This document shows, in pieces, positions 1 through 30,632 of a stretch of DNA of 31,397 nucleotides. A program made the position numbers and the translations under genes. Positions within the stretch are counted from its first letter, which is position 1. Each line of letters starts with the position of its first letter. The stretch lies in IMG/VR virus record IMGVR_UViG_3300001814_000002, positions 1-31,397 of that record; one strand, written 5' to 3'. The DNA comes from a virus. Under the pieces are notes generated by a model. That model made no database searches. It was not told the DNA's origin and was given only the letters and a program-made list of their open reading frames with translations.

Positions 1-675
1 GTTAATAGTCATGCACAACAGAGAATTGACTTGCTTAAACAATATGGAATTGAAGAGACATCCAATTTTATAATGAGTGATGGCCGACAAGTTGTCTTTG
101 ATAATAAGAATCATTTATTTGCTATTCTAAAAGTTAACATCGACTTTCCTTTATCATTTAGTCATAAAATTGATAGAGTACATAACTTCAGCCAAATAGT
201 TGATTGCGAATTATCAGTAGATGATTCAGTAGTCAAGAAAGAAGGAATTGGAAGAGCAGTTGTTGGAACATTAGTAGCTGGTGGTGTAGGTGCGATTATT
301 GGAGCTTTAACAGGCAAAAATAGGAATTTACTAAATAGTGTTAAAGTTAAAGTGATAGTTGAAGATGATGTGAATCCATTAATAGAATTTGTGATATTTA
401 ATGATTTTAAGAAAGGTTTAAGAAAAGGCAATCCCAAGTTTGAAAAAGTACTTCGAGATGCCGATAACCTGTATAGTTCATTCAAAGTGGCTATGAGCAA
501 AGAACATGATTCTAGAAGTGTTGAAACAGAAAACATCAGTAAACAAATTTCTAATGATTTGAATAGCAAAACAACTAGAGAAAAATTGCTTGAGCTACAG
601 GACCTGTTTAATGAATCATTGATTACACAGGAAGAGTATGTCGAAATGAAGAAAAAACTACTCGATAAAATCTGA
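1..675 (+). CDS. SHOCT-domain protein with glycine-zipper segment (5' end outside window)
   Basis: The frame is open from base 1, so the TTG at 31 is probably not the true start and the gene likely begins upstream. Counting from that TTG, residues about 76-97 form a small hydrophobic glycine-rich stretch (AVVGTLVAGGVGAIIGALTG), like a glycine-zipper or membrane-inserting hairpin. The last 35 residues (REKLLELQDLFNESLITQEEYVEMKKKLL, read in parts) match the SHOCT pattern: a short C-terminal helix pair common in phage and membrane-associated proteins and thought to mediate oligomerisation or nucleic-acid contacts. The charged middle has no motif I recognise. It lies 178 bases upstream of the TcmP operon, with a separate promoter between them, so co-function is not shown. 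SHOCT assignment is fairly sure; the function is unknown. Confidence 0.7.
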   Translation, partial: VNSHAQQRIDLLKQYGIEETSNFIMSDGRQVVFDNKNHLFAILKVNIDFPLSFSHKIDRVHNFSQIVDCELSVDDSVVKKEGIGRAVVGTLVAGGVGAIIGALTGKNRNLLNSVKVKVIVEDDVNPLIEFVIFNDFKKGLRKGNPKFEKVLRDADNLYSSFKVAMSKEHDSRSVETENISKQISNDLNSKTTREKLLELQDLFNESLITQEEYVEMKKKLLDKI

Positions 676-799
676 TAAAAAGCAAAAACCAATTATTCAA
701 AGTTAGTAAAAACTATTTTGAAAGGTAAATCTCTAGAAACATGCGTAAATAGTAGCTAAAAGCTGAAATGGTTGATGAATTATAATATTAAGGTTATCT

Positions 800-827
800 T
801 TCAAAAATATTGAAATTCACATATAAT
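800..827 (+). promoter_or_regulatory. Probable sigma-A promoter of the TcmP operon
   Basis: A perfect TATAAT at 822-827 has a TTCAAA (4/6 match to the -35 consensus) at 800-805, with a 16-base spacer. It sits 26 bases before the TTG start at 854, in an AT-rich gap. No convincing terminator follows the upstream gene, so read-through is possible. Confidence 0.45.
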
Positions 828-853
828 TTAATAAAGAAAATGGGGGTATTATT

Positions 854-2110
854 TTGAAAGAAAATTGTGAATATAGAGCTACTAATTCTGGAAAATGTTA
901 TTTTGGTCCAAAGAAAAAGAATAACTCAGATGAGATTCATATTGGTACGGAAAACAAGATACAATTTATTGAATCATATGTTGAAGGATGGATTAATAAA
1001 TTGTTAAATGGTCCATATCCATATGAAAGCTTAGTTTTTGTCGATGCGATGTCTAGTTGCGGTGAATATATAAATAAAAACAAGGAGAAAATTGAAGGTA
1101 CATCTTTGAGAGTGTTAAAACTCTTCAATAAATATGCAAATAGTGAAAAGTACAAGGGTAAAAAATACTATCTAATAGTGAATGATTTAGAAGAACGTGA
1201 AATAGAATGTCAAAAATGTAGAATTAATAGTATTGGGAAGAATAAAAATGTTTTTACAATTGAAACGGTTTCTGATGTTAAGGATTTTTTAATTAATCCT
1301 GGAAATTTCCTTCCAAAAGCTGAAAATTTCCATCTTTTGCTTTTATATGATCCCTACAAAGTAAATATTCTTTGGAAGGAGTTAAAACACTTCTTAACTG
1401 TACCTATTAGCAAAAATGGTAGCAAACTAAAATTCGATTTAATCATTACTCATTTCGGACAACATGATACACTTAGACTTGATCTAGATAATATTAAAGA
1501 TGAAGTTAAAAATAGACTTGAGAACTCATACAAAATGAGTCTAGATAAACTTTCTGAATTATTAGGTAATGACTCAGAATTCGAGAAAAAGAGAAAATTG
1601 AGAGAGAGATTTCGTGAAGTTATTGCAGATGAGCTCCAGGTAGATGAACGAGATATATCATATGCGCCAGTGTTCAATAAACTCAATAAAGATGTATATG
1701 ATATTGTTTTTTACTCGACTGATTCAAAAGCAAGGCAGTTGTTTAAAAAGACCATTTATTTAGCTACAAAAGATAGATTGAAATCTTCGGAGTCATATGG
1801 ACAACTAGACCTTAACCTTTCAGTATCGGATGATGAAAAATATCATGCAAGTATTGAAGAGTTACGTGAAATTCAATATTATTATTCTGCTAAATCATAT
1901 GCTAGCATTGTAGCTCACTATTTCGCTGGCAAAGAAATAACAAATGATCAACTTAAGGATTTCTTGATAAATCATGAGTTTATACCAAGTGAAAGTGTAA
2001 AAACAGATCTTGACAAATTCTTGAAAGATTTACATGGGGTTAAGATATGTTCAAAACCATCGAAGACTTATGTGTTTCAAACCATTAATGGTGATAGGAC
2101 AAAAATATGA
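854..2110 (+). CDS. tcmP: Three-Cys-motif partner protein TcmP
   Basis: This 418-aa protein resembles the TcmP family, which is regularly encoded beside a Gp37/Gp68-like protein with a three-cysteine motif. The N-terminal half reads as a Rossmann-type, methyltransferase-like fold: VDAMSSCGEY at about 63-72, EGTSLRVL at 81-88 and a DPY element (YDPYKV) at 165-170. These sit where TcmP proteins usually have a DxFAGxG-like loop, a GSP-like turn and a DPF. The C-terminal half is charged and helical with no recognised domain. The TTG start is supported by a GGGGG Shine-Dalgarno run at 842-846. The stop overlaps the next ATG by four bases, implying translational coupling to the three-Cys protein. 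The biochemical role of TcmP is not established. The family call is confident; a methyltransferase activity is only inference. Confidence 0.8.
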   Translation: MKENCEYRATNSGKCYFGPKKKNNSDEIHIGTENKIQFIESYVEGWINKLLNGPYPYESLVFVDAMSSCGEYINKNKEKIEGTSLRVLKLFNKYANSEKYKGKKYYLIVNDLEEREIECQKCRINSIGKNKNVFTIETVSDVKDFLINPGNFLPKAENFHLLLLYDPYKVNILWKELKHFLTVPISKNGSKLKFDLIITHFGQHDTLRLDLDNIKDEVKNRLENSYKMSLDKLSELLGNDSEFEKKRKLRERFREVIADELQVDERDISYAPVFNKLNKDVYDIVFYSTDSKARQLFKKTIYLATKDRLKSSESYGQLDLNLSVSDDEKYHASIEELREIQYYYSAKSYASIVAHYFAGKEITNDQLKDFLINHEFIPSESVKTDLDKFLKDLHGVKICSKPSKTYVFQTINGDRTKI

Positions 2111-2826
2111 ACAAAACAAGAATTGAATGGACAGAGTCAACCTGGAATCCAATTACCGGATGTACTCAAATCTCTACAGGATGTTTGAATTGTTATGCAA
2201 AAAAGATGGCTAACAGATTGAGCGCAATGAAGAATCCAAGATATTTAAACAACTTTAAATTAACGATTCATAAAGACTTGTTTATGCAACCTTTGAATAT
2301 TAAGGACGGAAAGGTCATTTTTGTCTGCTCTATGTCGGATTTATTCCACGAGGAGGTTGATTTTGAAACTATATCTGAAATTTTTGATGTTATGAAAAAG
2401 GCAGACTGGCATATTTTTCAAGTATTGACCAAAAGAAGCAGAAGATTAAAAGAATTTTCAGAAATTTATGAAATCCCTGAGAATATATGGATTGGTGTTA
2501 CAGTAGAGCATGAGTCACTTGCACATAGAATCGATGATTTGAGAGACATCAAAGCAAAAGTGAAATTTTTAAGTTGTGAACCATTATTAGGATCTTTAAA
2601 TAATTGCGATTTTCATGGAATTGATTGGATTGTAGTTGGCGGAGAGTCTGGCGCAAATGCAAGGCCATTAAAAGAAGAATGGGTGTTAGAGATCAGAGAT
2701 AAATGTGCACAAATGAACATTAAGTTCTTTTTTAAGCAATGGGGTGGATGGAACAAGAAAAAGAGTGGTAAGTTACTTGAGGGTAAGATATATTGTGAAA
2801 TGCCAAATTTAGATTATATTATCTAA
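2107..2826 (+). CDS. Phage Gp37/Gp68-like (DUF5131) three-cysteine protein, TcmP partner
   Basis: The 239-aa product opens with the family hallmark: a W-T-x-S-T-W-N-P-I-T-G-C block followed by two more cysteines, giving C19-x6-C26-x2-C29 and then YA. This resembles a radical-SAM-like cluster motif, although the spacing is not the classic CxxxCxxC. Other family signatures are visible: FVCSMSDLF at about 75-83, FQVLTKR near 110-116, IWIGVTVE near 135-142, and FLSCEPLL, WIVVGGESG and FFKQWGG further on. Length is normal for the family. It starts inside the tcmP stop codon, so the two proteins are probably made together. Binding of an iron-sulfur cluster or SAM is inferred from the cysteines, and no substrate is known. 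The family identification is strong; the function is open. Confidence 0.85.
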   Translation: MNKTRIEWTESTWNPITGCTQISTGCLNCYAKKMANRLSAMKNPRYLNNFKLTIHKDLFMQPLNIKDGKVIFVCSMSDLFHEEVDFETISEIFDVMKKADWHIFQVLTKRSRRLKEFSEIYEIPENIWIGVTVEHESLAHRIDDLRDIKAKVKFLSCEPLLGSLNNCDFHGIDWIVVGGESGANARPLKEEWVLEIRDKCAQMNIKFFFKQWGGWNKKKSGKLLEGKIYCEMPNLDYII

Positions 2827-2849
2827 TATTCTATAAGGAGAATCTCAAA

Positions 2850-3383
2850 TTGAGTAAGCAAAAAACCAATATTGAAATCATTAATAAATGGATAACTATT
2901 GATCCCAAAAAAATTGATAAATCTGCAAATTTCTTGAATATCATTCAGTTCTATTTATTCAACTGTCCAGTAAAAAATATAAATCATTATTCTGCTGTTA
3001 CAGTTAATGAATATGGATGGGATAAAGGAAAACTCCCAAAACTTAAAGGAGACATGTTAAGTGATAATAATCTCAAGAATAGAGTTTTCATTTGCAATAA
3101 TCTTAACGATGTTGAACTAACTATTCTCAACAACAATTTGTATGGCAATCAATTTACTAATGAGGAATTTGTAGTTTGTTGGAGGAATGAGAAAAACATT
3201 GTTGAAGCTTTACTTTATCTGATAAGGTGTGCATTTGCTCATAGATCATTTAGAGTAGTAAAAAAGAATAATGAGAAGTATTACTATTTAGCTAATGTCG
3301 ATAAAGGTAGAATTAAAGGAAGAGCTATATTAAAAGAATCCACATTACTTAAATGGATTACTAATATTCAAAATGGTAGTTAG
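2850..3383 (+). CDS. Small HEPN-like protein, third gene of the TcmP operon
   Basis: This 177-aa protein starts at a TTG preceded by AAGGAG at 2835-2840, only 23 bases after the three-Cys gene. A rho-independent terminator follows it, so it closes the operon. The one clear motif is in a predicted helix at about 119-134, EALLYLIRCAFAHRSF. It holds R126-x4-H131, matching the R-x4-6-H active site of HEPN RNases and the usual 'LRNxxAHG' style of HEPN helices. The rest is basic and asparagine-rich with no recognised domain. HEPN proteins often act as RNases in toxin-antitoxin and abortive-infection systems, so an effector role is possible. The match rests on one short motif and could be coincidental. 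Confidence 0.55.
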   Translation: MSKQKTNIEIINKWITIDPKKIDKSANFLNIIQFYLFNCPVKNINHYSAVTVNEYGWDKGKLPKLKGDMLSDNNLKNRVFICNNLNDVELTILNNNLYGNQFTNEEFVVCWRNEKNIVEALLYLIRCAFAHRSFRVVKKNNEKYYYLANVDKGRIKGRAILKESTLLKWITNIQNGS

Positions 3384-3392
3384 AGCAGACTG

Positions 3393-3421
3393 AAACTTCG
3401 GTACTTATCGAAGTTTTTTTT
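3393..3421 (+). terminator. Rho-independent terminator after the TcmP operon
   Basis: AAACTTCG at 3393-3400 pairs perfectly with CGAAGTTT at 3409-3416 across an 8-base loop and runs into a T tract. It lies 10 bases after the HEPN-like stop and 32 bases before the packaging module, separating cargo from late genes. Confidence 0.85.
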
Positions 3422-3452: not shown

Positions 3453-3899
3453 ATGGCTAAGAGTAAATGGGATCAAGTCAAATCGAAGTTACATCTTGTC
3501 GAAAAGTGGGCAAGAGATGGTTTAAGAGAAGATCAAATTGCTAAAAACCTTGGTATTTCTGTCACTACCTTAGAAGTCTATAAGAAGCAATACCCTGAAG
3601 TTTCTAAAGCCTTAAAAAAGGGGAAAGAAACTTTAATCACTGAACTTGAGAATGCACTTATTAAGAAAGCACTTGGGTATGAGTATGAAGAGAAGAAAGT
3701 CTATACCAAAAATGAGAATGGTAATTCAGTGACTTATACTGAGATCACTAAGAAACATCAACCTCCAGACACAGGTGCGCTCTTCGGTTTACTCAAGAAC
3801 AAAGATCCTCAAAACTATTCTGATAATCCACAAATGCTGCAGCTTAAGAAACAAGAACTTGAACTTCGAGAAAGACTTGCTAAAGCAGAGGAATGGTAA
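3453..3899 (+). CDS. HTH protein resembling a terminase small subunit
   Basis: This is the first gene of the late module, 148 aa, with an AGAGGTG ribosome site before the ATG. Residues about 15-50 form a helix-turn-helix (REDQIAKNLGISVTTLEVYKKQYP). It is followed by a helical stretch and then the segment PPDTGALFGLLKNKDPQNYSD. That segment closely follows the 'PPDTxALxFxLKNRxPxxW' signature of many small-terminase and related HTH proteins. The C-terminus is a charged coiled coil (MLQLKKQELELRERLAKAEEW). A DNA-recognition role at the packaging site is likely. A second, P27-like small-subunit candidate lies at 4746, so which of the two is the true TerS is not settled. This one could be a regulator or accessory packaging factor. 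Confidence 0.65.
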   Translation: MAKSKWDQVKSKLHLVEKWARDGLREDQIAKNLGISVTTLEVYKKQYPEVSKALKKGKETLITELENALIKKALGYEYEEKKVYTKNENGNSVTYTEITKKHQPPDTGALFGLLKNKDPQNYSDNPQMLQLKKQELELRERLAKAEEW

Positions 3900-4612
3900 T
3901 GGCCAAGTATACAGCCCTTGCCGATTTCTATAAAAGTCACGAGTGGAGATCATTGCGATTCAAACTTATGAATGAGCGAAGTCATCAAAGCAAAGGACTA
4001 TGTTGTCAACACTGTGGTGAAATCATTCATAAAGAGATTGATTGTATAGCTCATCATATAAAAGAGCTGACGCCAACTAATGTCCACGATGCAAACATAT
4101 CACTTAATCCGAAGAATATTCTGTTGGTTCATCATCGATGTCATAACGAAATCCATGAACGGTTTGGATATCAATCAACACAAAAAGTCTATATCGTTTA
4201 TGGTCCACCACTCTCAGGGAAGACCACCTTTGTTAAACAAAACAAAGGCCGAAAAGATATTGTGTTGGACCTTGATGAACTATACAAAGCTATAACACTA
4301 CTACCTGCCTATGATAAGCCAACCGAACTAGCCCAAAATATCTTTCAATTAAGAGATGTATTACTGGATCAAATCAAAACACGAACAGGCAAATGGTCTC
4401 AAGCATGGATCATCGGTGGTTATCCAAACTTTGTAGAGCGTGAGCGATTAGCTCATCAACTTGGAGCAGAACTTTTATTCATTGAGGCTTCCCAAGAAGA
4501 GTGTCTACATAGACTATACCAAGATAAGGATAAACTGCACGTTCAAAGGGAATGGCAGCAATATATCCAACAGTGGTTCCTAAGATTCATTCCTGATCCC
4601 CCCCGGGTCTGA
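3899..4612 (+). CDS. HNH endonuclease fused to a P-loop kinase-like domain
   Basis: This 237-aa protein joins two domains. Residues about 10-90 are an HNH nuclease: zinc-binding C36-x2-C39, the catalytic-type HH pair at 52-53, N73, and a second metal pair C81-H82 with H86. Residues about 96-237 start with a Walker A motif, GPPLSGKTT at 102-110, then LDLDELYKA near 123-131, as in zeta-toxin/polynucleotide-kinase-like P-loop kinases. The ATG at 3899 is preferred over the in-frame ATG at 3893: it overlaps the upstream stop as TAATG and leaves good spacing from GAGG at 3888-3891. HNH proteins next to terminase genes are known packaging components in HK97-like and staphylococcal cos phages, so a DNA-packaging role is likely. 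The kinase's substrate is unknown; DNA-end processing is a guess. Confidence 0.8.
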   Translation: MAKYTALADFYKSHEWRSLRFKLMNERSHQSKGLCCQHCGEIIHKEIDCIAHHIKELTPTNVHDANISLNPKNILLVHHRCHNEIHERFGYQSTQKVYIVYGPPLSGKTTFVKQNKGRKDIVLDLDELYKAITLLPAYDKPTELAQNIFQLRDVLLDQIKTRTGKWSQAWIIGGYPNFVERERLAHQLGAELLFIEASQEECLHRLYQDKDKLHVQREWQQYIQQWFLRFIPDPPRV

Positions 4613-19189: not shown

Positions 19190-19312
19190 ATGAAGAAGCC
19201 TCATGAAGAATCAGAAGTTATCGAGGATCTTGATTTATCTCAAGAACTCGCGTTTTTATTAGAAGAAGAAAGTGAGGAGTCCCATGAGCAAGACCAACCT
19301 AGGACTCGTTGA
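19190..19312 (+). CDS. Small acidic protein upstream of the endolysin
   Basis: A 40-aa frame has an excellent AAGGAG site at 19178-19183 and an ATG at 19190. The peptide is strongly acidic (MKKPHEESEVIEDLDLSQEL, then AFLLEEESEESHEQDQPRTR). It runs 29 bases into the endolysin gene, whose own GAGGAG site lies within it, suggesting translational coupling. Short acidic ORFs of this kind are common just before lysis genes in Bacillota siphophages. Function unknown. Confidence 0.65.
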   Translation: MKKPHEESEVIEDLDLSQELAFLLEEESEESHEQDQPRTR

Positions 19313-20060
19313 ATACGCGAAGAGTAAACTCAGTGTTCCTACGACTTATATGCTGGGAGGATTTGGAAGGTCTTTAACCCAAGCTATGATTGATCGTCGA
19401 GTGAAGGAGTTAAAATGTCCCCATACAATACGAAACTTATCCACCATCCAACAAGGACTAGGCAAAGCCTGTTTTGATTGTGTTGGGCTTATCAAAGGAT
19501 ACCTGTGGGAACAAAAACCAGGCGTCGTCTCCTACAACATCCCTAAGGGAAGTGATCAAAATGTTGGGATGATGTATCGATCCTGTAAAGTTAAAGGAGA
19601 TTTTAAAGACATGCCAGATACTCCAGGACTACTTGTCTTCACTAAGGATCTTGGTCATCTCGGCATTTACATTGGAAAAGATTCCAAAGGTAATCGTGAA
19701 TACATTGAATCGACTCCAGCACGAAATCAATGGGGTGTTACAAAAAGCAATGATCAGCTCCGCACATGGGCTTACTGGGGAGAGTATAGTTTCATTGATT
19801 ATGTGAGTAAAAAAATGCCCACACCATTAAACCCTGGAGATATTGTGTATGTGAGTGGTGTTGGACGCTCCAGCAGTTTAGGCACAGGACGCTCCACCGC
19901 TAACTATCGCAACAAACGGATGGTGATCATCAAACATCTTCCTAAGTCTCCATATCCATATGGTTGTTCAACAATGATCTATTCACCTGTTGGTGAGGAA
20001 GGATCACGCTATATTACTGCCTACTTCAAAGAAGAATCACTGAAGAAGAATCGACTATGA
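19284..20060 (+). CDS. Endolysin with NlpC/P60-like peptidase domain
   Basis: The 258-aa lysin has an N-terminal cysteine-peptidase domain. C66 lies in ACFDCVGLIKGYLW, the usual 'DCxGxxxxxx' nucleophile helix, and H125 lies in DLGHLGIYIGK, the usual H-[GV] strand, with a polar third residue likely near N148. Such enzymes cleave peptidoglycan stem or cross-bridge peptides, or act as amidases. After a linker (KKMPTPLNPGDIVYV), residues 181-258 form an SH3-like or cell-wall-binding module (GVGRSSSLGTGRSTANYRNK). The frame extends to GTG 19272, but GAGGAG at 19274-19279 fixes the start at ATG 19284. No signal peptide is seen, so a holin is needed for export. Confidence 0.82.
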   Translation: MSKTNLGLVEYAKSKLSVPTTYMLGGFGRSLTQAMIDRRVKELKCPHTIRNLSTIQQGLGKACFDCVGLIKGYLWEQKPGVVSYNIPKGSDQNVGMMYRSCKVKGDFKDMPDTPGLLVFTKDLGHLGIYIGKDSKGNREYIESTPARNQWGVTKSNDQLRTWAYWGEYSFIDYVSKKMPTPLNPGDIVYVSGVGRSSSLGTGRSTANYRNKRMVIIKHLPKSPYPYGCSTMIYSPVGEEGSRYITAYFKEESLKKNRL

Positions 20061-20338
20061 ATAGTGATACCTCATTAAGTATTTCAGTGATCATTGCGAT
20101 CTTAGGATGTTTTGTGGGGTTAGCAGGATGGATTCGAGGTCGAGATACACGGATCATCAATGATTCTGAGTGGAAAGGCATGGTAAATGCCAAACTTGAT
20201 ATGGCCATTGGACTTAGAAAAGATCACGATGAGCTTCAAGATCGTCATAACCAACATTCCGAACGAATCGGACGAGTAGAGGAATCAACCAAAGCAGCTC
20301 ATCGAAGAATCGATGCGATTGAAAACAAGAAACAATAA
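20057..20338 (+). CDS. XhlA-like small membrane/coiled-coil lysis protein
   Basis: The 93-aa protein overlaps the endolysin stop by four bases. Residues 8-26 form one transmembrane helix (ISVIIAILGCFVGLAGWI), followed by a basic RGRDTR. A soluble helical domain (LDMAIGLRKDHDELQDRHNQ, then HSERIGRVEESTKAAHRRID) forms a clear coiled coil. This layout resembles hemolysin XhlA-type or accessory holin proteins, though XhlA usually carries its transmembrane helix at the C-terminus, so it could instead be a spanin-like or anchoring factor. It is the last late gene and is followed at once by a terminator. Confidence 0.55.
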   Translation: MNSDTSLSISVIIAILGCFVGLAGWIRGRDTRIINDSEWKGMVNAKLDMAIGLRKDHDELQDRHNQHSERIGRVEESTKAAHRRIDAIENKKQ

Positions 20339-20756: not shown

Positions 20757-20784
20757 TAGACTTAATTAATATTTGTGGTATATT
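20757..20784 (+). promoter_or_regulatory. Promoter immediately upstream of the methyltransferase operon
   Basis: TATATT at 20779-20784 with TG at 20776-20777 forms an extended -10. TAGACT at 20757-20762 is a weak -35 with a 16-base spacer. The transcript would start only about 13 bases before the ATG at 20804. Confidence 0.45.
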
Positions 20785-20803
20785 GTTCAAAAAGAGGTTC
20801 TAT

Positions 20804-21835
20804 ATGAGATATATTGGAAGCAAAGTATTACTTCTAGATTACATTAATAGTGTAGTAGATGAGCTAGCACCTGAAGCAAAAAGTATGTGTGATATATTTT
20901 CAGGTACAGCAAGTGTTTCTAGATACTTCAAGGAAAAATTCGAGATCATATCTAATGATCTCTTATATTTTTCATATGTACTTCAAAAAGCAACTATTGA
21001 GAATAACTTCATTCCCAATTTTGAAGAAGTTAAATCTGTACTTGGGATTAATGATGTGTTCAGTTATTTGGAAAACGAGAAATACCCTGATGTTGAGAAA
21101 ATTGGGTTCTTTTATAATAATTTTTCTCCAAATGGGGGAAGAATGTACATAACTGATGATAATGCTCTAAGGATTGATAGTTCGAGGCTATTTGTTGAAG
21201 ATTGGAAAAGAAGAAAGTTATTATCAGAAAATGAATACTATTACCTAATTGCGTGTATTGTTGAGGGAATTCCATTTATCTCAAATATTTCTGGAACATA
21301 TGGAGCTTATCATAAAACTTGGGATAAAAGAGCACACAAATCATTTAAACTATTTAAGTTAGAAGTTGTCGATAATATGAAAAATAATAAATCATATAAT
21401 GAAGATGGTAACAATCTTGTGAGGAAAATTTCGGGGGATATACTTTATATTGATCCACCATATAACGAAAGGCAATATCTTCCTAACTATCATTTATTAG
21501 AAACCGCAGCACTATATGATTATCCAGAAGTTAAAGGAAAAACTGGTGTTAGGCCTTATCAAGATAAAAAATCAAAATTCTGTATGAAAAAAACGGTTTT
21601 ATCTACATTTGAAGATTTAGTTACCAACTCAAATTTTAAACATGTTTTACTTAGTTATAACTCAGAAGGCTTAATGACCTCAGATCAAATTGAAAGTGTA
21701 ATGAAAAAAATTGGTAAAGAAGAAACATTTAGAATTATTGAAATCCCATATAGAAGATTTAAGAGCAGATCAACAAATCATGATGGGGAAATTCACGAAT
21801 TCATATATTATATTGAAAAGGATCTAAAAAAATGA
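20804..21835 (+). CDS. DNA adenine methyltransferase resembling the N-terminal half of M.FokI
   Basis: The 343-aa D12-class N6-adenine methyltransferase opens with MRYIGSKVLLLDYI. It has the SAM-binding motif DIFSGTASVS (30-39) and catalytic DPPY at 217-220, followed by NERQYLPNYHLLETAALYDYPE. These blocks, along with FISNISGTYGAYHKTWDKRA, match my memory of the first domain of M.FokI, which methylates one strand of an asymmetric GGATG site. The actual recognition site here cannot be deduced. ATG 20804 with AAGAGG at 20792-20797 is preferred over the upstream in-frame TTG. It overlaps the next methyltransferase by four bases, so the pair is co-translated. It protects the phage or lysogen from the nuclease encoded at 23717. 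Confidence 0.85.
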   Translation: MRYIGSKVLLLDYINSVVDELAPEAKSMCDIFSGTASVSRYFKEKFEIISNDLLYFSYVLQKATIENNFIPNFEEVKSVLGINDVFSYLENEKYPDVEKIGFFYNNFSPNGGRMYITDDNALRIDSSRLFVEDWKRRKLLSENEYYYLIACIVEGIPFISNISGTYGAYHKTWDKRAHKSFKLFKLEVVDNMKNNKSYNEDGNNLVRKISGDILYIDPPYNERQYLPNYHLLETAALYDYPEVKGKTGVRPYQDKKSKFCMKKTVLSTFEDLVTNSNFKHVLLSYNSEGLMTSDQIESVMKKIGKEETFRIIEIPYRRFKSRSTNHDGEIHEFIYYIEKDLKK

Positions 21836-22740
21836 GTCTAGTAAAAAGTCCATTGAATTATACAGGGGGGAAATATAAACTACTTAGTCAAATACTTAAG
21901 TTCTTCCCTAAGGAAATTGACACTTTTGTGGATCTATTTGGTGGTGGATTTAATGTAGGTGTAAATGTCAAAGCAAATAAAGTTATTTATAATGATCAAA
22001 TAGACTATTTAGTAGAGATATTTGAATACTTCAAAAAACATGACATTGATTTACTGCTTGAAGAAATCAATCATCTAATCAACGAATTTGACTTGAGCTT
22101 ATTTAATCAAAAAGGTTATAACCAACTTAGAAGTGAATACAATTCATCAAAATCACCCATGAAGTTATTTACCCTAACTTGTTATTCATTTAATCACCAG
22201 ATAAGATTTAATTCTAAACATGAATTTAATGCGCCTTTTGGAATCAACAGAAGTTGCTTTAATGATAGAATAAAAAACAATTTGATTAGATTCTGCAATC
22301 AACTTAAAAGCAAAGATGTTGAGTTCTCGAATCTAAGTTTTGAGAATTTCAGGGTTACTGATCTGAATAGTAAAGATTTAGTTTATTGTGATCCTCCATA
22401 TTTGATAACTACAGGTTCATACAATGATGGAAAGAGAGGATTTAATGGTTGGACAGAGACTGAAGAACTATTACTCCTTCAGTTTCTTGATACACTTGAT
22501 GAATTAGGAGTAAAATTTGCATTATCAAATGTACTAGAGCATAAAGGGGTAAAAAATCAGATTTTAATAGAATGGTCAAAAAAATATAATGTGCACAGAA
22601 TTGACTCAAATTACGAAAATAGTAATTATCAATCGAAGAATACAGAATTCAAAAGTCTTGAAGTGCTAATAACTAATTATAATCTTGTTGAGGAGGGCAA
22701 TCAAATTGAAGTTGAGCAACTACAATTTATACGATGGTGA
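21832..22740 (+). CDS. DNA adenine methyltransferase resembling the C-terminal half of M.FokI
   Basis: This 302-aa D12-class enzyme has an N-terminal SPLNYTGGKYKLLSQIL element (6-22), the SAM motif FVDLFGGGFNVG (32-43) and DPPY at 187-190 in DLVYCDPPYLITTGSYN. The blocks NQIRFNSKHEFNAPFG and FALSNVLEHKG resemble what I recall of the second M.FokI domain. With the upstream gene the two proteins sum to 645 aa, close to the fused enzyme. It likely methylates the opposite strand of the same asymmetric site. The start overlaps the previous stop (ATGA). It also overlaps the third methyltransferase by 35 bases. Confidence 0.85.
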   Translation: MSLVKSPLNYTGGKYKLLSQILKFFPKEIDTFVDLFGGGFNVGVNVKANKVIYNDQIDYLVEIFEYFKKHDIDLLLEEINHLINEFDLSLFNQKGYNQLRSEYNSSKSPMKLFTLTCYSFNHQIRFNSKHEFNAPFGINRSCFNDRIKNNLIRFCNQLKSKDVEFSNLSFENFRVTDLNSKDLVYCDPPYLITTGSYNDGKRGFNGWTETEELLLLQFLDTLDELGVKFALSNVLEHKGVKNQILIEWSKKYNVHRIDSNYENSNYQSKNTEFKSLEVLITNYNLVEEGNQIEVEQLQFIRW

Positions 22741-23710
22741 AGAACCAGTTTTATTGAAAGAAGTCTACCCAAATTATCTGGAAATGAATTTGCCAAAATG
22801 GGTACTTGATGATATTGAAAATGCATATGTAGTAGGATCATCGTTCAATGCAGTAGTATTGCCAGGGAATAGAAGATACAGCTTAAATAATAGACTTAAT
22901 CATTTATCGGGATCCGAATGGATATATTTCACTAATTCTGTAATAAATACAAAATTTAATACAAAAGGAAAAGATTCATTTGCACATAATATTAGAAAGA
23001 TTCACCCAACACCAAAACCACCTCAATTAATGAGAGAAATAATTGAATTTTTTACAAAAGAAAATGAATTGGTAATTGATTTTTTTATGGGAGTAGGAGG
23101 AACTCTACTAGGAGCTAGTTTAGCAAATCGAAGGGCTATAGGTTTCGAATTAAATCCTGACTATATATCCGCTTATATCAAGGCTGCTAATGAGCTAAAT
23201 ATTAAAATTGAAAACTCTTTTTGTGTTGATAGTGTTGAAGCACTTGAAAACAACCAGTTTATGAAAGAAGTATTAAACGGTGATGAGGTTTCTTTGATTT
23301 TAATAGATCCTCCATACTCAAACATGATGAGTCGCAAGAAGACTGGGGGAGATTTACCAATTCATGGTGCTAACGGAACACCATTTACAAATTCATCACT
23401 TGATTTGGGTAATGTATCTTATGAGGTATTTAAAGAGAAGTTTCTTCGTACAATTATATCCAGTGTTAAATATTTGAAACATCGAGGATATCTAGTTGTC
23501 TTTATAAAAGATTTGCAGCCTGAAAAGAAAACGACGAACTTATTGCATGCAGATCTAATTGAGATAATTAATAGTATTGATGGACTTTATTATAAAGGAC
23601 TAAAGATTTGGGCAGATCAAACAACAAAGTTGTATCCTTATGGGTATCCATTTTCATTTGTAGCTAATCAGATCCATCAATATATATTAGTTTTTAGGAA
23701 AGAAAATTGA
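22706..23710 (+). CDS. Third DNA methyltransferase with permuted motif order
   Basis: The 334-aa protein has HPTPKP at 100-105, the SAM-binding FMGVGG at 127-132 and FELNPDYI at 147-154, then DPPY at 201-204. So motif X precedes I and IV: the reverse of the beta-class order, more like gamma/alpha enzymes, with the N-terminal 100 residues as a possible target-recognition region. The DPPY points to N6-adenine or N4-cytosine methylation. TTG 22706 is chosen for AGGAGGG at 22691-22697; the frame also extends to TTG 22685. It overlaps the previous gene by 35 bases and ends six bases from the convergent nuclease gene. It could modify the same site, single strands, or a second site. Confidence 0.75.
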   Translation: MKLSNYNLYDGEEPVLLKEVYPNYLEMNLPKWVLDDIENAYVVGSSFNAVVLPGNRRYSLNNRLNHLSGSEWIYFTNSVINTKFNTKGKDSFAHNIRKIHPTPKPPQLMREIIEFFTKENELVIDFFMGVGGTLLGASLANRRAIGFELNPDYISAYIKAANELNIKIENSFCVDSVEALENNQFMKEVLNGDEVSLILIDPPYSNMMSRKKTGGDLPIHGANGTPFTNSSLDLGNVSYEVFKEKFLRTIISSVKYLKHRGYLVVFIKDLQPEKKTTNLLHADLIEIINSIDGLYYKGLKIWADQTTKLYPYGYPFSFVANQIHQYILVFRKEN

Positions 23711-23716
23711 GAATTT

Positions 23717-25096
23717 TCAAACTAATCCAGTAAAAGCATTTCTGATTACCAAAGGTGCATTTTCATTTATTACAATATTCCCATCTTCACTTATATAAAG
23801 TAACACACTAGGGTGTGGAATATTGCTCAAGTTACCTCCGAAAATTGTTAACCATTTTGAGATTGTATGTTTTGGATAGTTTTTTATTATAAACTCATTT
23901 GTGATACTACCGTAATTATTTAATTCACTTATTCCATTTGCAAGGGTTTTCAGTTGCTTTCCTTCAATTATTAAAATCTCTTTTGTTGCTTCACTCAATA
24001 GTATTAAATCTGGAATAAATAGTAATTCACCTTGAGAATCCTTTTTTGGTAGTACAACAAAAGGATTATTTTGAGTTTTGAAATAACCGCGTTCACAACC
24101 AGCGTGGTTCTGATATATCGCTTTTAACCCGAAATTTTCGGCAACTATATGTAGAAAAATAGAAGCTATTTTTTCTGATGATTTTTCATAATGCCAATAA
24201 TCGGTAGGAAGTTCGAAGTCTGGGATTGAAATTCCTTCCATTTCAATTGATAAAAGCTTACAAATGCTTAAGAATTTATTCCCGGTTTTGAGACTATTGA
24301 TATATGATTGACTCACTCCATGATTTCTTAATAGAATTCCATTCTTCCAACCTAGATCTCTTATTGTCTTACTTATACATGAGATAGCTCCAATATTCGG
24401 GTCATGAGCAATGTTTCCTGATCCGATTGGTTTTTCTAAACGACCTGTAACTACAATCACATTTACATTCATAGTAATTGTAATTGGAACATTTCCGGCA
24501 GGAGGTAATCTCATTTGACTTTTCAATTTGATGAGATCATTGATTGAATTGAAAGAACTGAACCACGAACTAATATCTTTGCCTACAATTTTAACATCCT
24601 GTGTCAAAAGCATATTAGTACCGAATACACTTGTAGCACTCGGCTTTTTATTTTGTCTTACAATCAATTCATCATTATAAAGCATATATTTTTTAATATT
24701 CTTGAAGAAGATATCTATAAAAGCAAACTTTGAAGCTCTTTGATATACTCCGGTGTTTCGGGATTCATCATCACTGGTTTTTGTTTCTTCAATTGCCATT
24801 AGTACATTGGGACCACAATAATTGCCTTCTGGTTTCTCAACTTGTTTTACAATCAAAAAATCGAAAAAACTCGATTCACCTGAAACCGTCAATATGAAAA
24901 TATTCGAAATATTCTTTAGCTTTATGCCGACAAGACAATAAGAAAAAGAAAAGAAACCATCTTTTACAATAGGGGTAATAGTTGGGGTTGTATTTTCCTC
25001 AATACTATCTCCGAAATCATCACAATATAATTCAATTATCTTCAACAATACAGAAACCTTAGGCCGTTCTTCAGTTAAAATCCACAAGTTTTCCAT
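23717..25096 (-). CDS. Probable type II restriction endonuclease (PD-(D/E)xK)
   Basis: This 459-aa protein is convergent with the three-methyltransferase operon. Its C-terminal part holds a classical nuclease core: P362-D363 in FIPDLILLSEA, a short loop, then E378-G-K380 in ILIIEGKQL, with a preceding helix containing E320. This is the PD-x(n)-(D/E)xK metal site of restriction enzymes. A segment near 254-283 (GILLRNHGVSQSYINSLKTG) looks helix-turn-helix-like and could contribute to site recognition. A second E-E-T-K cluster lies at 103-106. I do not recognise the exact family. It has a good GGAGG site and its own promoter. Being next to FokI-like methyltransferases suggests cleavage of an asymmetric site, perhaps as a type IIS enzyme; it does not look like R.FokI itself. 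Confidence 0.7.
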   Translation of the reverse strand: MENLWILTEERPKVSVLLKIIELYCDDFGDSIEENTTPTITPIVKDGFFSFSYCLVGIKLKNISNIFILTVSGESSFFDFLIVKQVEKPEGNYCGPNVLMAIEETKTSDDESRNTGVYQRASKFAFIDIFFKNIKKYMLYNDELIVRQNKKPSATSVFGTNMLLTQDVKIVGKDISSWFSSFNSINDLIKLKSQMRLPPAGNVPITITMNVNVIVVTGRLEKPIGSGNIAHDPNIGAISCISKTIRDLGWKNGILLRNHGVSQSYINSLKTGNKFLSICKLLSIEMEGISIPDFELPTDYWHYEKSSEKIASIFLHIVAENFGLKAIYQNHAGCERGYFKTQNNPFVVLPKKDSQGELLFIPDLILLSEATKEILIIEGKQLKTLANGISELNNYGSITNEFIIKNYPKHTISKWLTIFGGNLSNIPHPSVLLYISEDGNIVINENAPLVIRNAFTGLV

Positions 25097-25116
25097 GAAA
25101 TTCCTCCATTAGAGAA

Positions 25117-25125
25117 ATCATATCA
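25117..25125 (-). promoter_or_regulatory. Extended -10 promoter of the restriction nuclease
   Basis: On the minus strand TGATATGAT (25117-25125) is an extended -10. A GGAGG site (25103-25107) and the ATG at 25096 follow, giving a very short leader. It lies beside the arm repeats of attP, so integrase binding there could affect it. Confidence 0.45.
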
Positions 25126-25149
25126 CAACTAAAAAACAGTTTATATAAA

Positions 25150-25170
25150 ATGTGGTCACAATGTGGTCAC
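25150..25170 (+). repeat. Two arm-type integrase repeats, left of the att core
   Basis: ATGTGGTCAC occurs at 25150-25159 and 25161-25170, spaced 11 bases (about one helical turn). Three further identical copies lie right of the core. Such clustered direct 10-mers are the usual arm-type binding sites of tyrosine integrases. Confidence 0.7.
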
Positions 25171-25180
25171 GACAAAATAA

Positions 25181-25201
25181 AAACCGCTGTTTAAGCGGTT
25201 T
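25181..25201. terminator. Hairpin next to the att core, possible bidirectional terminator
   Basis: AAACCGC at 25181-25187 pairs with GCGGTTT at 25195-25201 with a 7-base loop. The flanks are A/T-rich, but the T runs are short. It lies directly left of the tRNA-like core, so it may resemble a tRNA-distal terminator acquired from a host att region. Confidence 0.45.
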
Positions 25202-25210
25202 ATTTGCATG

Positions 25211-25230
25211 TTGGCAGGGGTAGCAGGACT
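25211..25230 (-). other. attP: Phage attachment core: 3' end of a tRNA, probably tRNA-Trp
   Basis: Read on the minus strand this 20-base segment gives AGT, CCTGC (T-stem), TACCCCT (acceptor strand), discriminator G and CCA. Both AGGGGYA-type acceptor pairing and the ending CCCCTGCCA match Bacillota tRNA-Trp. Identity to a tRNA stops in the T-loop (after ACT on the plus strand), so it is a fragment, not a tRNA gene. It is bracketed by arm repeats, as expected for attP. The exact crossover and host tRNA are inferred. Confidence 0.7.
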
Positions 25231-25242
25231 GATGGAAAAGCT

Positions 25243-25306
25243 TTACCAAGTATAACAAATCCACTCTTTAGAGGGTTTTTATGAGCTGTCTCTTACCAAG
25301 TTTAAC
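25243..25306 (+). repeat. Imperfect 14-base direct repeat within attP
   Basis: TTACCAAGTATAAC at 25243-25256 recurs as TTACCAAGTTTAAC at 25293-25306 (13 of 14 bases). Between them GAGGGTT (25271-25277) and AACCCTC (25304-25310) form an inverted repeat. These may be binding sites for an excisionase or host factor. Confidence 0.4.
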
Positions 25307-25321
25307 CCTCATTTTCAAAAA

Positions 25322-25355
25322 ATGTGGTCACAAATGTGGTCACAGATGTGGTCAC
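25322..25355 (+). repeat. Three arm-type integrase repeats, right of the att core
   Basis: ATGTGGTCAC at 25322-25331, 25334-25343 and 25346-25355, with 12-base spacing, is identical to the two left-arm copies. The stretch 25356-25421 holds no further feature I can support. Confidence 0.7.
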
Positions 25356-25421
25356 TAATGGAAAATAATCGGACATAATATTTGAAATTATAAATATAAA
25401 TGAGTGATTGGTTAAGTTGAT

Positions 25422-25430
25422 TGTTATAAT
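25422..25430 (+). promoter_or_regulatory. Extended -10 promoter for the EVE-HNH gene
   Basis: TGTTATAAT at 25422-25430 is an extended -10 with perfect hexamer. A second TATAAT at 25436-25441 lies just downstream. The leader to the GTG at 25496 is about 60 bases. Confidence 0.45.
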
Positions 25431-25495
25431 AACATTATAATTCGTCATGTTCAACTAATTTTGTGAAACAATGATTTCAATAGGAGGGCGGGAAA

Positions 25496-26881
25496 GTGGC
25501 TAACTGGATCATAATCACCAATCCAAAATTTTACGATATTGTAGGCGCATTCGAGAAATATAAAGAGATTGATTACAAGCAAAGTACTGACATAAAAACT
25601 GGAGATACAGTTTATATTTACATGGCACACCCTTATCAGGAAATAAAGTATAAGTGTGTAGCACTAAAAACAGACTTAAGCTCTCGTGAAGTGGACACAA
25701 GTGAATTCGATATAGATAACACAAACTATAAAGATGCTGGCCGCTATATGACTTTGGAACTTCAAGAAATTTATGATGAGTATATTACTCTTGAAGATCT
25801 ACAAGATATAGGGATCAAATCAGTTCAAGGACCATTTAAAGTGAGTGAACGACTTCAAAAATTGATTGATGATAAAGTCCAAAAAGGTAAGAATGAGATT
25901 AGACAAACTCAAGTGTTTTTTGTCTTTCAGAATAAGAGTTATCAAGAAGAATCTAGTGAAGGCTATTTGTGGGCACCCAAGAGAAATGATAAAGGTCATA
26001 TCATTGCTCATTGGGACTTAATGAGAAAAGTCAAAAAAGGTGATTTGATAATTCATAGTTTTAATAGAAGAATAGTCGCTGTCAGTAGAGCAAACAATGA
26101 TGCATATTCTAGTGAAAGACCTGAAATCAAAGGAACACATTGGAATATTAATGGATGGCGTGTAGATGCTAAATATCATGTTCTTGAAACCCCAATTGAC
26201 ACTATAAACTTAAGAGATCATTTCAGAAAAATCCAACCTAAGAAATTATCCCCATATAATATAAAAAATAGAGGGAATACAGGTTACTTGTACAATGCAA
26301 ATGTTGAGATGCTTAACTATCTAGTTGAAGTCATTCGAAGTGAATCAATAAAGGATTATGCATCTGTTAGTGAACTAATAAAAAGAAATGATATTGATTT
26401 TACTCATGCAATTTATGACGATGAGCAACTCGAGCAAGTCGTAGCTGAAATTATCGAATCAGGTTATGAATCAATAAGCACAGATGATGATCCACATCCG
26501 GTTGATAAACCAGATTACATATTCGAAAACAGCAAGAAGAAATTTAAAAGAAATGGAATGGTAGCCTATAAGGCGTTAAAGAGAGCGAATTTCAGTTGCG
26601 AGATAGACTCAGAACATCCAAGTTTCATTAGGCGAAAAACGAAGAAAAATTATACAGAACCACATCATTTGATTCCTATGGAATTTCAGGATCGGTTTGA
26701 ACATTCACTTGATGTTGTAGCTAACATCGTTTCCTTATGCAGTAATTGTCATAATCAAGTTCATTATGGACTTAGCAATTTAGAGATAGTTGAAGCTCTT
26801 TTCAAAAAAAGAGCAAATGACCTGAAAAAAAAGGGAATTGAGATTAGTATTGAAGAATTATTCAAATTATATAATGATTAA
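25496..26881 (+). CDS. EVE/PUA-HNH nuclease, probable modification-dependent (type IV) restriction enzyme
   Basis: The 461-aa protein joins two PUA-superfamily-like sensor modules to an HNH nuclease. Residues 1 to about 125 begin MANWIIITNP with GDTVYIYMAHPYQEIKYKCVA, typical of EVE domains that flip out modified bases. Residues about 137-250 repeat the theme (YLWAPKRNDKGHIIAHWDLM, then GDLIIHSFNRRIVAVSRA), closer to other PUA/EVE-like readers. Residues about 350-425 form HNH: H390-H391, N410, C415-x2-C418-H419 and H423. EVE-HNH enzymes are known to cut DNA with modified cytosines such as 5-hydroxymethylcytosine. Start: GTG with AGGAGGG at 25483-25489. It sits alone right beside attP. Likely role: exclusion of phages with modified genomes; the base recognised is unknown. 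Confidence 0.8.
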   Translation: MANWIIITNPKFYDIVGAFEKYKEIDYKQSTDIKTGDTVYIYMAHPYQEIKYKCVALKTDLSSREVDTSEFDIDNTNYKDAGRYMTLELQEIYDEYITLEDLQDIGIKSVQGPFKVSERLQKLIDDKVQKGKNEIRQTQVFFVFQNKSYQEESSEGYLWAPKRNDKGHIIAHWDLMRKVKKGDLIIHSFNRRIVAVSRANNDAYSSERPEIKGTHWNINGWRVDAKYHVLETPIDTINLRDHFRKIQPKKLSPYNIKNRGNTGYLYNANVEMLNYLVEVIRSESIKDYASVSELIKRNDIDFTHAIYDDEQLEQVVAEIIESGYESISTDDDPHPVDKPDYIFENSKKKFKRNGMVAYKALKRANFSCEIDSEHPSFIRRKTKKNYTEPHHLIPMEFQDRFEHSLDVVANIVSLCSNCHNQVHYGLSNLEIVEALFKKRANDLKKKGIEISIEELFKLYND

Positions 26882-26984
26882 ACTTAACTTTTCGGAATAC
26901 CACATGTCTACCTCTTTCTAAACAATTTTGATAGGATTAGAGATATACGCAAAAATGAAATAATATAGATTAAGGAAATGGAAA

Positions 26985-27809
26985 ATGGAGACAAAATTTA
27001 ACTATTATAACAATGAAGAAATCAATCTTTATCTCGGAGATTCGTTCAAAATATTAGAGCTACTGCCGGCAGAGTCATTTGACATGATTTTTGCAGATCC
27101 TCCATATTTTTTATCAAATAATGGGATTACTTGTCAGAGTGGTGAAATGGTCTCCGTTAATAAAGCTGAATGGGATATGGGTTTTAAGATTGAGCAAATT
27201 CATGATTTCAACGTAAAATGGTTAAAAATGTGCAAGCGATTATTAAAACCGAATGGCACTATTTGGATATCAGGAACAATGCATAATATATATTCAGTAG
27301 GTTTAGCTCTTCAAGAATTAGACTATAGAATCTTGAACAATATTACGTGGAGAAAATTGAACCCTCCACCAAATTTGTCATGTCGATTCTTCACTCATAG
27401 CACTGAGACAATACTTTGGGCGAGTAAAGGGAAGAAAGCAAAGCATTATTTTGACTATCAATATATGAAAAAAATAAACGGTAACAAGCAAATGAAAGAC
27501 GTATGGGATTTACCAGCCATTAGCAAAAAGGAAAAGATTCATGGTAAGCACCCTACTCAAAAACCTGAGAAACTACTAGAAAGGATTGTGTTAGCGGCGA
27601 CTAAATCCGGTGACAAAATACTTGATCCTTTTAATGGAAGTGGGACTACAGGTGTTGTGGCTGTAAAATTAGGAAGAAGCTATGTTGGCATAGATTTAAG
27701 TCAAGAGTATCTTGATCTTACGATTAGACGTTTAGAATCAATCAAATTAAACAAATATGGAGGGGATAATGAAGCTAGAAGAGGCGAAAATCAAGCTACG
27801 TCAAATTGA
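26985..27809 (+). CDS. Beta-class DNA methyltransferase resembling M2.DpnII (DpnA)
   Basis: This 274-aa enzyme has beta-class order: DPPY at 38-41 (MIFADPPYFLSNNGI), a central target region, HPTQKP at 189-194, and the SAM loop FNGSGTTG at 216-223 with GIDLSQEYL. The sequence WISGTMHNIYSVGLALQEL, then ILNNITWRKLNPPPNLSCRF and THSTETILWA, closely follows what I recall of DpnA. DpnA methylates adenine in GATC, also on single-stranded DNA. It begins the operon, with AAGGA before the ATG. It overlaps the MutH-like nuclease by 41 bases. In DpnII systems DpnA protects incoming single strands during transfer; a similar role on newly injected or replicating phage DNA is inferred. Confidence 0.85.
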   Translation: METKFNYYNNEEINLYLGDSFKILELLPAESFDMIFADPPYFLSNNGITCQSGEMVSVNKAEWDMGFKIEQIHDFNVKWLKMCKRLLKPNGTIWISGTMHNIYSVGLALQELDYRILNNITWRKLNPPPNLSCRFFTHSTETILWASKGKKAKHYFDYQYMKKINGNKQMKDVWDLPAISKKEKIHGKHPTQKPEKLLERIVLAATKSGDKILDPFNGSGTTGVVAVKLGRSYVGIDLSQEYLDLTIRRLESIKLNKYGGDNEARRGENQATSN

Positions 27810-28431
27810 GAATATTCCATTAAGAGTATTTATAAATGAGGATGATTTTGCAGATATTATTAGAGCTAAAGGAAGAACGGGGCAATTACTGGAGTTAGCA
27901 ATTGGATTAAATAATGGTGGAGGCAGATTGGATTTTGAAGATGGAGAACTGAAAACCAACAAATGCGATAGAAATGGAAATCCGAAAGAGACAGTATTTA
28001 TTACTCAGATTAGTGGGATGATTGATGATTTGATTACTGGTAAACCTTTTTACGAATCTATTGTATATCAAAAGATAAAGAACTTATTATATGTGCCAAT
28101 ATGCAAGGATTCACAAGATCCGAGAGAGTGGTATTTCATGCCCAATATCCATGCTAACTTTGAAGATGAGCAATTTATCGAGATTATTACTCAAATAAAG
28201 CATGACTATGAACTGATTTGCTCAGACATAGTGAGACTCTTGAATGCTTCACCAACATCATTCATACATACCAGTGGTGGTGAATATATTCAGATTAGAA
28301 CAAAAGATGGCATACCTTATAACCCTATCTATTCGAATGTTTATAATAGGTACATTTCAAATAAGAATTATGCATTCTACTTTAAGAAGAGGTTTGTTTA
28401 TGCACTAAAAGAAGCAGGGAGGAGAATATAA
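27769..28431 (+). CDS. MutH/Sau3AI-like GATC endonuclease
   Basis: The 220-aa protein carries the MutH-superfamily nuclease pattern. KGRTGQLLELAIG (35-46) corresponds to the helix with the first catalytic glutamate. D55 and E60-L-K62 lie in LDFEDGELKT, followed by ETVFITQIS. MutH and Sau3AI cleave at GATC. Here the D-to-ExK spacing (five residues) is two shorter than in E. coli MutH (seven, from memory), so the active-site loop may differ. Length matches single-domain MutH (about 229 aa), not two-domain Sau3AI. GGAGGGG at 27759-27765 and ATG 27769 set the start; an in-frame ATG lies at 27757. It overlaps the upstream methyltransferase gene, and its TAA overlaps the next ATG by one base, so it is translated with partners. 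Flanking DpnA and Dam-like enzymes support GATC restriction. Confidence 0.78.
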   Translation: MKLEEAKIKLRQIENIPLRVFINEDDFADIIRAKGRTGQLLELAIGLNNGGGRLDFEDGELKTNKCDRNGNPKETVFITQISGMIDDLITGKPFYESIVYQKIKNLLYVPICKDSQDPREWYFMPNIHANFEDEQFIEIITQIKHDYELICSDIVRLLNASPTSFIHTSGGEYIQIRTKDGIPYNPIYSNVYNRYISNKNYAFYFKKRFVYALKEAGRRI

Positions 28432-29174
28432 TGTCATATGATTTGATGAGAGATAGACTTTTAAGACACTTTAAAAACGAGCATGATATTTGGGATGAGT
28501 TTTTGAAGAGAAAAAAAGAACTAGAATTAAATGGACAAAGGAGTTCAATTCCAAGTATATCAAATACGAACACAGTCACAGTTAATAGAGATATAGGAAT
28601 AACAATATCTTATCCAGGATATAAAACAGATTTTAAATATGGCAAATACGTATATGATTATCGAGTATCGTTTAAAGGAATTGCTATTTCTCATCCAAGT
28701 ATTATTATTGATCTCTTTAATAAAGCAGTACAACTTGGCGACAATTATAAATTGCTAGAGAAATTCTTGATTGATTTAGCAAAAAAAGGTGATGCAATTG
28801 AGCTTCAAAATCACCAGTTTATTTGCGATTTCAATTTTTCATCACCCGATCCACACTTGTTAGAGAAAGCTAATGTTGTTTATAGAAGACAGAATAAATT
28901 ATATTTGATTGATTCAAATAGAGATTTCAATTTTTCTATAAAGGAATTAGTTGAGTTAATGTCTTGGATCACATTACAAGAAGATATTAACTATCCAATG
29001 GAAAAAGGGTTTCAAGGTAGAAGGATGCCGTATTATCGTTATATTGAAGCTGTATACTGTGGTAAACATAATGAACGTAATTTATCTGAGGTGGTAGAAC
29101 GTGCGTTGGCTCATAACCGTCCAACTCTGTGGTCAGAGATTGATTATTCAGCTATCACGAGACTTGGAAACTAG
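28431..29174 (+). CDS. Unknown protein of the GATC restriction operon
   Basis: This 247-aa protein has a strong GGGAGGAG ribosome site and starts on the last base of the MutH-like gene, so stoichiometric co-expression is likely. It is soluble, rich in K, N and aromatic residues, with a beta-rich region at about 53-85 (IGITISYPGYKTDFKYGKYV, YDYRVSFKGIAISHPSI) followed by helices. No catalytic motif was recognised. Sau3AI has a second, non-catalytic MutH-like domain that helps DNA binding. A separately encoded equivalent would fit this place, but no sequence evidence shows that fold. Alternatives are a controller or a DNA-translocation partner. Confidence 0.6.
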   Translation: MSYDLMRDRLLRHFKNEHDIWDEFLKRKKELELNGQRSSIPSISNTNTVTVNRDIGITISYPGYKTDFKYGKYVYDYRVSFKGIAISHPSIIIDLFNKAVQLGDNYKLLEKFLIDLAKKGDAIELQNHQFICDFNFSSPDPHLLEKANVVYRRQNKLYLIDSNRDFNFSIKELVELMSWITLQEDINYPMEKGFQGRRMPYYRYIEAVYCGKHNERNLSEVVERALAHNRPTLWSEIDYSAITRLGN

Positions 29175-29186
29175 GAGGAAGTCTAA

Positions 29187-30614: not shown

Positions 30615-30632
30615 ATTTTTCTCCATTTTTAT

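Follow-up and report, generated by a model that had tools for sequence, protein, structure and literature searches.

The closest described counterpart of the genes considered here is PDC-M30 (sister PDC-M41), a candidate defence system in the PADLOC collection of which two components were matched, a TcmP protein (A) and a DUF5131 protein (B). A prediction across 100 P. aeruginosa strains placed it in 32, of which 68.8% were phage-resistant, a correlation only, and it has also been detected through its location within defence islands of bacteria (PMC10855318). Both TcmP and DUF5131 are widespread families, and our literature search found no functional study of either protein or of PDC-M30. Here we examine a 31,397-base stretch of viral DNA (positions 1-31,397 of IMG/VR virus record IMGVR_UViG_3300001814_000002; hereafter the window), in which PDC-M30A and PDC-M30B lie side by side (PADLOC thresholds not applied), in the same order and with overlapping genes, and are followed by a third gene, encoding a HEPN-like protein, that is not known for PDC-M30. 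The three genes sit in a cargo hotspot of the phage and are exchanged as one block (811-3393, plus strand). We tentatively prefer to read this block as a prophage-encoded anti-phage defence cassette, in which a modification pair would be joined to a HEPN RNase effector. The parts are known; what is new is the combination of TcmP-DUF5131 with a HEPN protein, which was found nowhere else in the loci compared.

Several other described systems resemble the locus in part. The PDC-M30 pair itself is kept across many loci, and pairs of TcmP with a radical S-adenosylmethionine (SAM) protein (TIGR04474 with TIGR04471-like or PF04055 partners) have the same gene order and homologous partner families. 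However, their cysteine motif is C-x3-C-x3-C, whereas the DUF5131 protein of the window has C-x6-C-x2-C, and their downstream genes include those for methyltransferases of type III or type I, for HindIII-like enzymes and for GmrSD nucleases, but not for the HEPN protein of the window. The pEK499_p136 HEPN family (PF18736) has an R-N-x3-H motif and likewise occurs with restriction-modification (R-M) and Pgl/BREX genes (PMC3710099); about half of the relatives of gene 3 score weakly against it, but the protein of the window is divergent and gives no match, has R-C instead of R-N, and carries a beta meander after the motif. Tha of S. aureus is also a prophage-borne HEPN RNase with R-x4-H that blocks other phages, although it is a single protein of 301 amino acids, has an extensive N-terminal part and lacks enzyme partners (PMC11087260). 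In HEPN-MNT toxin-antitoxin systems the HEPN protein likewise adjoins an enzyme that could modify it, but a domain search found no MNT nucleotidyltransferase domain in genes 1 and 2, and gene order and partners differ. Finally, Dnd and BREX loci are modification-linked and may carry a stand-alone HEPN protein as a backup effector (PMC10853773, PMC12839542), whereas no Dnd or BREX component was seen among the window genes examined.

An Exchangeable Cargo Slot Upstream of the Terminase Genes

The slot was compared in 79 related loci retrieved by a search with the large terminase. It is bounded on the left by a SHOCT-domain gene, the 3' part of which occupies positions 1-675 (plus strand; identified by domain and PHROG matches and by comparison with the nearest relative, L204, where it encodes 308 amino acids), and on the right by the terminase small subunit gene (TerS; 3453-3899, plus strand; phrog_309, 7.6e-36). 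Both proteins are 100% identical in L204, and TerS is so in L137 as well. At the DNA level, window positions 1-810 are 99.75% identical to L204, positions 811-3393 have no match there and similarity returns at 3394; in the comparison with L137 the left match stops at 804 and the right match begins, again, at 3394. Because these borders coincide among relatives with differing cargo, the three genes are recognised as the content of a cargo hotspot, moved as a block. In L204 the slot holds a single gene of 388 amino acids encoding a Ser/Thr protein kinase (PF00069, 3.9e-31), and the cargo of L137 includes a DUF262 protein (PF03235 GmrSD_N, 3.6e-24). This supports a role in defence, and the view taken in the first-pass annotation of the sequence, that the operon occupies a defence-type cargo slot before the packaging genes, is borne out both by these replacements and by the identity of the pair with PDC-M30. 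The possibility that the operon represents host DNA flanking a prophage was rejected: phage-shared sequence lies on both sides in L204, and the same exchange borders are seen in L137.

A conserved 28-base element, TGAATTATAATATTAAGGTTATCTTTCA (776-803), marks the left border and lies just upstream of differing cargo in the relatives compared. It is identical in L204 and L137, has two to three mismatches in L196, L140, L145 and L146, and is weaker in L155, L157 and L158; a single match was present in 969 kb of other loci with up to six mismatches allowed. The right border (3392-3420, plus strand) coincides with an intrinsic terminator, scanned at 3392-3417 and the only one found. Since its hairpin is conserved before TerS in close relatives, the terminator belongs to the phage backbone and not to the cassette. 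The GC content of the cassette is ca. 30%, compared to 42-46% in the structural genes.

Within the cassette the three genes lie on one strand with no internal terminator. Genes 1 and 2 overlap in ATGA and gene 3 starts 23 bases after gene 2; gene 1 has a TTG start preceded by GGGGG at 842-846, and gene 3, also with a TTG start, has an AAGGAG ribosome-binding site at ca. 2834. The three genes, their ATGA coupling and 23-base gap, the C-x6-C-x2-C and R-x4-H motifs and the terminator are all where the first-pass annotation had placed them. The promoter-like site TTCAAA-N16-TATAAT (800-827, plus strand), the -10 box of which is inside the cassette, came top of the scan with 10 of 12 positions and is a plausible promoter, no more than plausible because the region contains 22 such sites against 21.2 in shuffled sequences; the terminator is real but, as shown above, is part of the phage.

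In the distant relatives L142 and L152 some slot genes resemble ordinary host genes (an ABC transporter and a metal ATPase) and, therefore, we speak of defence cargo for the closest relatives only. Cargo upstream of TerS in these and other relatives, as judged by eye, comprises a PHP-ATPase (L148), DUF2971-like and trypsin-like proteins (L140), an aminoglycoside-phosphotransferase-like protein (L149), a metal P-type ATPase with ArsR (L152) and an ABC transporter (L142).

The TcmP-DUF5131 Pair

Gene 1 (854-2110, plus strand) encodes a TcmP protein of 418 amino acids. It matches TIGR04474 with 65.9 bits (5e-18; curated cut-off 53) and PDC-M30A at 1.1e-7 over residues 25-178. An AlphaFold2 model built from 13 sequences (predicted local distance difference test score, pLDDT, 69) retrieved methyltransferases in Foldseek, with a Rossmann-like fold. 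In structural alignment with VIA-align the first nine rows are all RlmJ of E. coli (Z 13.7-14.0, ca. 224 residues aligned, root-mean-square deviation 3.5-3.8; for entry 6qdx Z 14.0, deviation 3.7 and 224 residues) and the tenth is a DUF519 protein of Legionella, so that the top ten consists entirely of RlmJ/DUF519 proteins. RlmJ of E. coli is the N6-methyltransferase of A2030 in 23S rRNA. A profile of 28 TcmP sequences gave weak matches to the sequences in the PDB, mostly RlmJ (E 0.04-0.26); searches of solved structures by sequence gave no significant match for any of the three genes. An alignment of 28 diverse TcmPs leaves only M1, K35, Y42, D64, G70, D166 and P167 invariant, a pattern that fits a SAM-binding site (D-x5-G) and a motif IV D-P. 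On the predicted structure and these homologies, gene 1 encodes an RlmJ-like protein of the class I methyltransferase fold, in agreement with its initial description as a Rossmann-like TcmP.

Gene 2 (2107-2826, plus strand) encodes a DUF5131 protein of the phage Gp37/Gp68 type with 239 amino acids and the motif C19-x6-C26-x2-C29, the three cysteines of which are invariant in seven sequences. Its matches to PF07505 (7.5e-93; 310.9 bits, cut-off 28.9) and PDC-M30B (2e-109) are strong; PDC-M41B is also matched, and TIGR04471 is matched at 1.9e-26, under its cut-off. The alternative partners of TcmP are Radical_SAM proteins, one of which matches PF04055 at 9.6e-13, and the DUF5131 profile aligns with this partner family in hhalign with a probability of 95.4% (E 1.7e-8, 195 columns). 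Because of this homology to the PF04055-type partners, DUF5131 is assigned by profile comparison as a relative of the radical-SAM proteins whose cysteines are unusually spaced, as C-x6-C-x2-C and not as the canonical C-x3-C-x2-C. DUF5131 is frequent in phages (161 phage records).

The association of the two families is general. A gene for DUF5131 or for a radical-SAM protein stands next to tcmP in 67 of 83 loci, and several of the remaining 16 loci are cut by contig ends; TcmP is likewise present in 36 of 80 viral DUF5131 loci. In two phyla, 37 of 396 and 29 of 398 sampled genomes, respectively, encode a TcmP that scores above its cut-off; in one class the figure is 13 of 391. Restriction components are often encoded directly behind the pair. 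Among 44 genes downstream of it are eight type III (N6_N4_Mtase) and four type I (N6_Mtase) methyltransferases, two HindIII, two GmrSD and one TIR/SEFIR protein; the type III count overstates the number of independent events because several cases are close relatives. These components occur mainly behind the radical-SAM kind of pair. In two loci (L051:5885-7204 and L053:6010-7263) a HindIII-like enzyme follows TcmP and the radical-SAM gene, and no DNA methyltransferase was recognised in the part of the flank examined; the pair might there be the protecting modifier for the HindIII-like enzyme. In another locus (L135:3083-6299) a TcmP-DUF5131 pair close to the type of the window lies near a phage-type HNH gene, with AbiE-like genes nearby (by eye).

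The HEPN-like Protein

Gene 3 (2850-3383, plus strand) encodes a protein of 177 amino acids with the motif R126-x4-H131. Searches of plasmids and genomes yielded relatives in Treponema, Collinsella and gut and rumen Clostridia. In a 13-member family R126 and H131 are invariant (13/13), as are W14, F34, P40, Y55, W57, N116, I125, A130, R158, T165, L166, W169 and G176. Six of the 13 members match PF18736 (HEPN pEK499_p136; best 1.9e-4) and one matches HEPN_Apea. In the AlphaFold2 model (pLDDT 82) the motif ends a helix (117-130) and is followed by the beta meander; a beta-hairpin after the motif has been reported for HEPNs of the Csx1 type (PMC3710099). By homology of its family, gene 3 encodes a HEPN-like protein. 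Two of the 13 members also match DzbB of Dazbog at 4e-4. Viral contig searches with gene 1 and gene 3 alone and with A1 gave no relatives, and in the phage collection there was one relative of gene 1 and none of gene 3.

The relatives of gene 3 are found in a variety of defence-related settings. One (L003) lies in a BREX locus between pglX and pglZ, and another (L005) follows pglX; in the latter (L005:3818-6639) a pglX-like gene stands on one side of the HEPN gene and a pglX-like fragment in inverted orientation on the other, an arrangement like that of invertible cassettes. A third (L049) lies between hsdS- and hsdR-like genes (by eye), and a fourth (L006) occurs with an SPFH protein and an adjacent TIR-TPR protein. 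In six loci of Clostridia (L008, L010, L011, L013, L016 and L018) the relatives are part of a recurrent operon of an SPFH/Band-7 zinc-ribbon protein, a membrane protein and a zinc-ribbon-TPR protein, which could be a separate defence-like system. A survey of HEPN proteins has noted the pEK499_p136 group in R-M and Pgl operons (PMC3710099), HEPN proteins figure as stand-alone auxiliary effectors in recent surveys of BREX and Dnd loci (PMC12839542, PMC10853773), and Dnd modification loci carry HEPN or DNase partners (PMC10853773).

Possible Function of the Cassette

These data suggest, tentatively, how a defence cassette of this composition might work. Genes 1 and 2 would jointly write a modification of RNA or DNA, or sense its loss; gene 3 would be an endoribonuclease that is harmless until another phage disturbs the modification state, whereupon it would cleave RNA and abort the infection. 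Since the gene after the pair elsewhere often encodes a restriction component, the pair may represent a modification module that combines with exchangeable nucleases, in this case with an RNase. The dependence of gene 3 on genes 1 and 2 is inferred only.

A number of results weigh against this interpretation. The gene 3 protein of the window by itself matches no HEPN model and gives no direct family match in the profile libraries, and fold searches of its model in the PDB and BFVD returned nothing at E ≤ 0.001 and no HEPN among the listed rows, an outcome still compatible with a HEPN protein, so that its assignment as HEPN is a sequence-based one; the initial proposal of a HEPN-like protein is upheld by the invariant motif residues and the PF18736 matches, but not by fold comparison. 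Motif IV of gene 1 reads D166-P167-Y168, with one proline where RlmJ-type enzymes have two (D-P-P-Y), which makes methyltransferase catalysis not certain. The pair, especially with DUF5131, is often without a third gene, and this HEPN is absent from all of ca. 120 tcmP loci (the 83 loci and the 36 viral loci with TcmP and DUF5131). Conversely, no relative of gene 3 examined, in the plasmid and genome loci and eight more, adjoins tcmP. Of 391 Clostridia genomes, 13 contain TcmP above cut-off, seven contain the gene 3 family and one (G154) contains both, on different contigs. Among the loci compared the full set of three genes occurs only in the window and, therefore, the case for coupling gene 3 to the pair comes from a single operon. 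Linkage to tcmP was the check that the first-pass annotation had itself set for an RNase effector dependent on the other two genes, and with its negative outcome that dependence is unproven.

It is possible, and nearly as likely as a coupled system, that two independent units have been stacked in the slot, TcmP-DUF5131 being a unit for defence or fitness, with gene 3 as an independent, self-sensing HEPN effector of abortive infection that landed behind it by chance. The pair and the HEPN family are each widespread without the other, the slot takes varied cargo, and defence by a single HEPN protein of a prophage is known from Tha, an RNase triggered by tail proteins (PMC11087260). However, gene 3 lies only 23 bases downstream, with its own ribosome-binding site and a shared terminator, all three genes are in one exchange block, and the position after the pair is elsewhere often taken by a restriction component, all of which weighs against independent stacking.

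A toxin-antitoxin system, in which gene 3 would be a toxin neutralised by TcmP-DUF5131 through chemical modification of the HEPN protein (as MNT AMPylates HEPN in HEPN-MNT pairs) or through modification of its RNA target, seems unlikely. HEPN toxins under the control of an adjoining enzyme that modifies them have been described (HEPN-MNT, cited in PMC11087260), and the products of both upstream genes resemble enzymes that use SAM and are produced ahead of gene 3. However, genes 1 and 2 are without a nucleotidyltransferase domain, and relatives of gene 3 exist without the pair, so that the family needs no such antitoxin. An RNA-directed form of R-M, with the RlmJ-like and radical-SAM-related proteins marking self RNA, the HEPN RNase destroying RNA that is unmarked or has lost its mark, and the pair serving as a general module with interchangeable nucleases, we likewise regard as improbable. 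The least probable explanation is counter-defence or lytic help, in which genes 1 and 2 would modify RNA or DNA as an escape from restriction or anticodon nucleases of the host, with gene 3 cutting host RNA during takeover: DUF5131 is common in phages and the right arm of this phage encodes several DNA methyltransferases, but the replacement of the block by a kinase or a DUF262/GmrSD protein in relatives, together with the presence of PDC-M30 in bacterial defence islands (PMC10855318), points to defence-type cargo.

Our analysis partly supports the original reading of the operon as a possible uncharacterised defence system, a label that is apt for its function although PADLOC already lists the TcmP-DUF5131 pair among its candidates. 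For two widespread families our analysis offers predictions, i.e., an RlmJ-like methyltransferase fold, a relationship to radical-SAM proteins and a next position frequently occupied by restriction components. The compact cassette joins the pair to a putative RNase and comes with a built-in control, the same slot with a kinase. If the pair is indeed a modification module, this would account for a defence candidate that has been catalogued but not characterised.

Other Features of the Window

The window contains genes for the small and large terminase subunits and the portal protein. Lysis-type open reading frames (19272-20338) and a tyrosine-integrase-type open reading frame (30675-31355, minus strand), all judged by eye, indicate that the phage is probably temperate. 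The gene following TerS (3893-4612) encodes an HNH-like N-terminal part and a P-loop domain and falls in phrog_4581, annotated as terminase small subunit. A second low-GC arm (20783-30626), which the lysis genes and the integrase enclose, has at least four DNA methyltransferases assigned by PHROGs (20783, 21832, 26985 and, on the minus strand, 29712) and a fifth recognised by eye (22685). An HNH protein encoded at 25496-26881 has an N-terminal part that resembles, by eye, two EVE-type domains.

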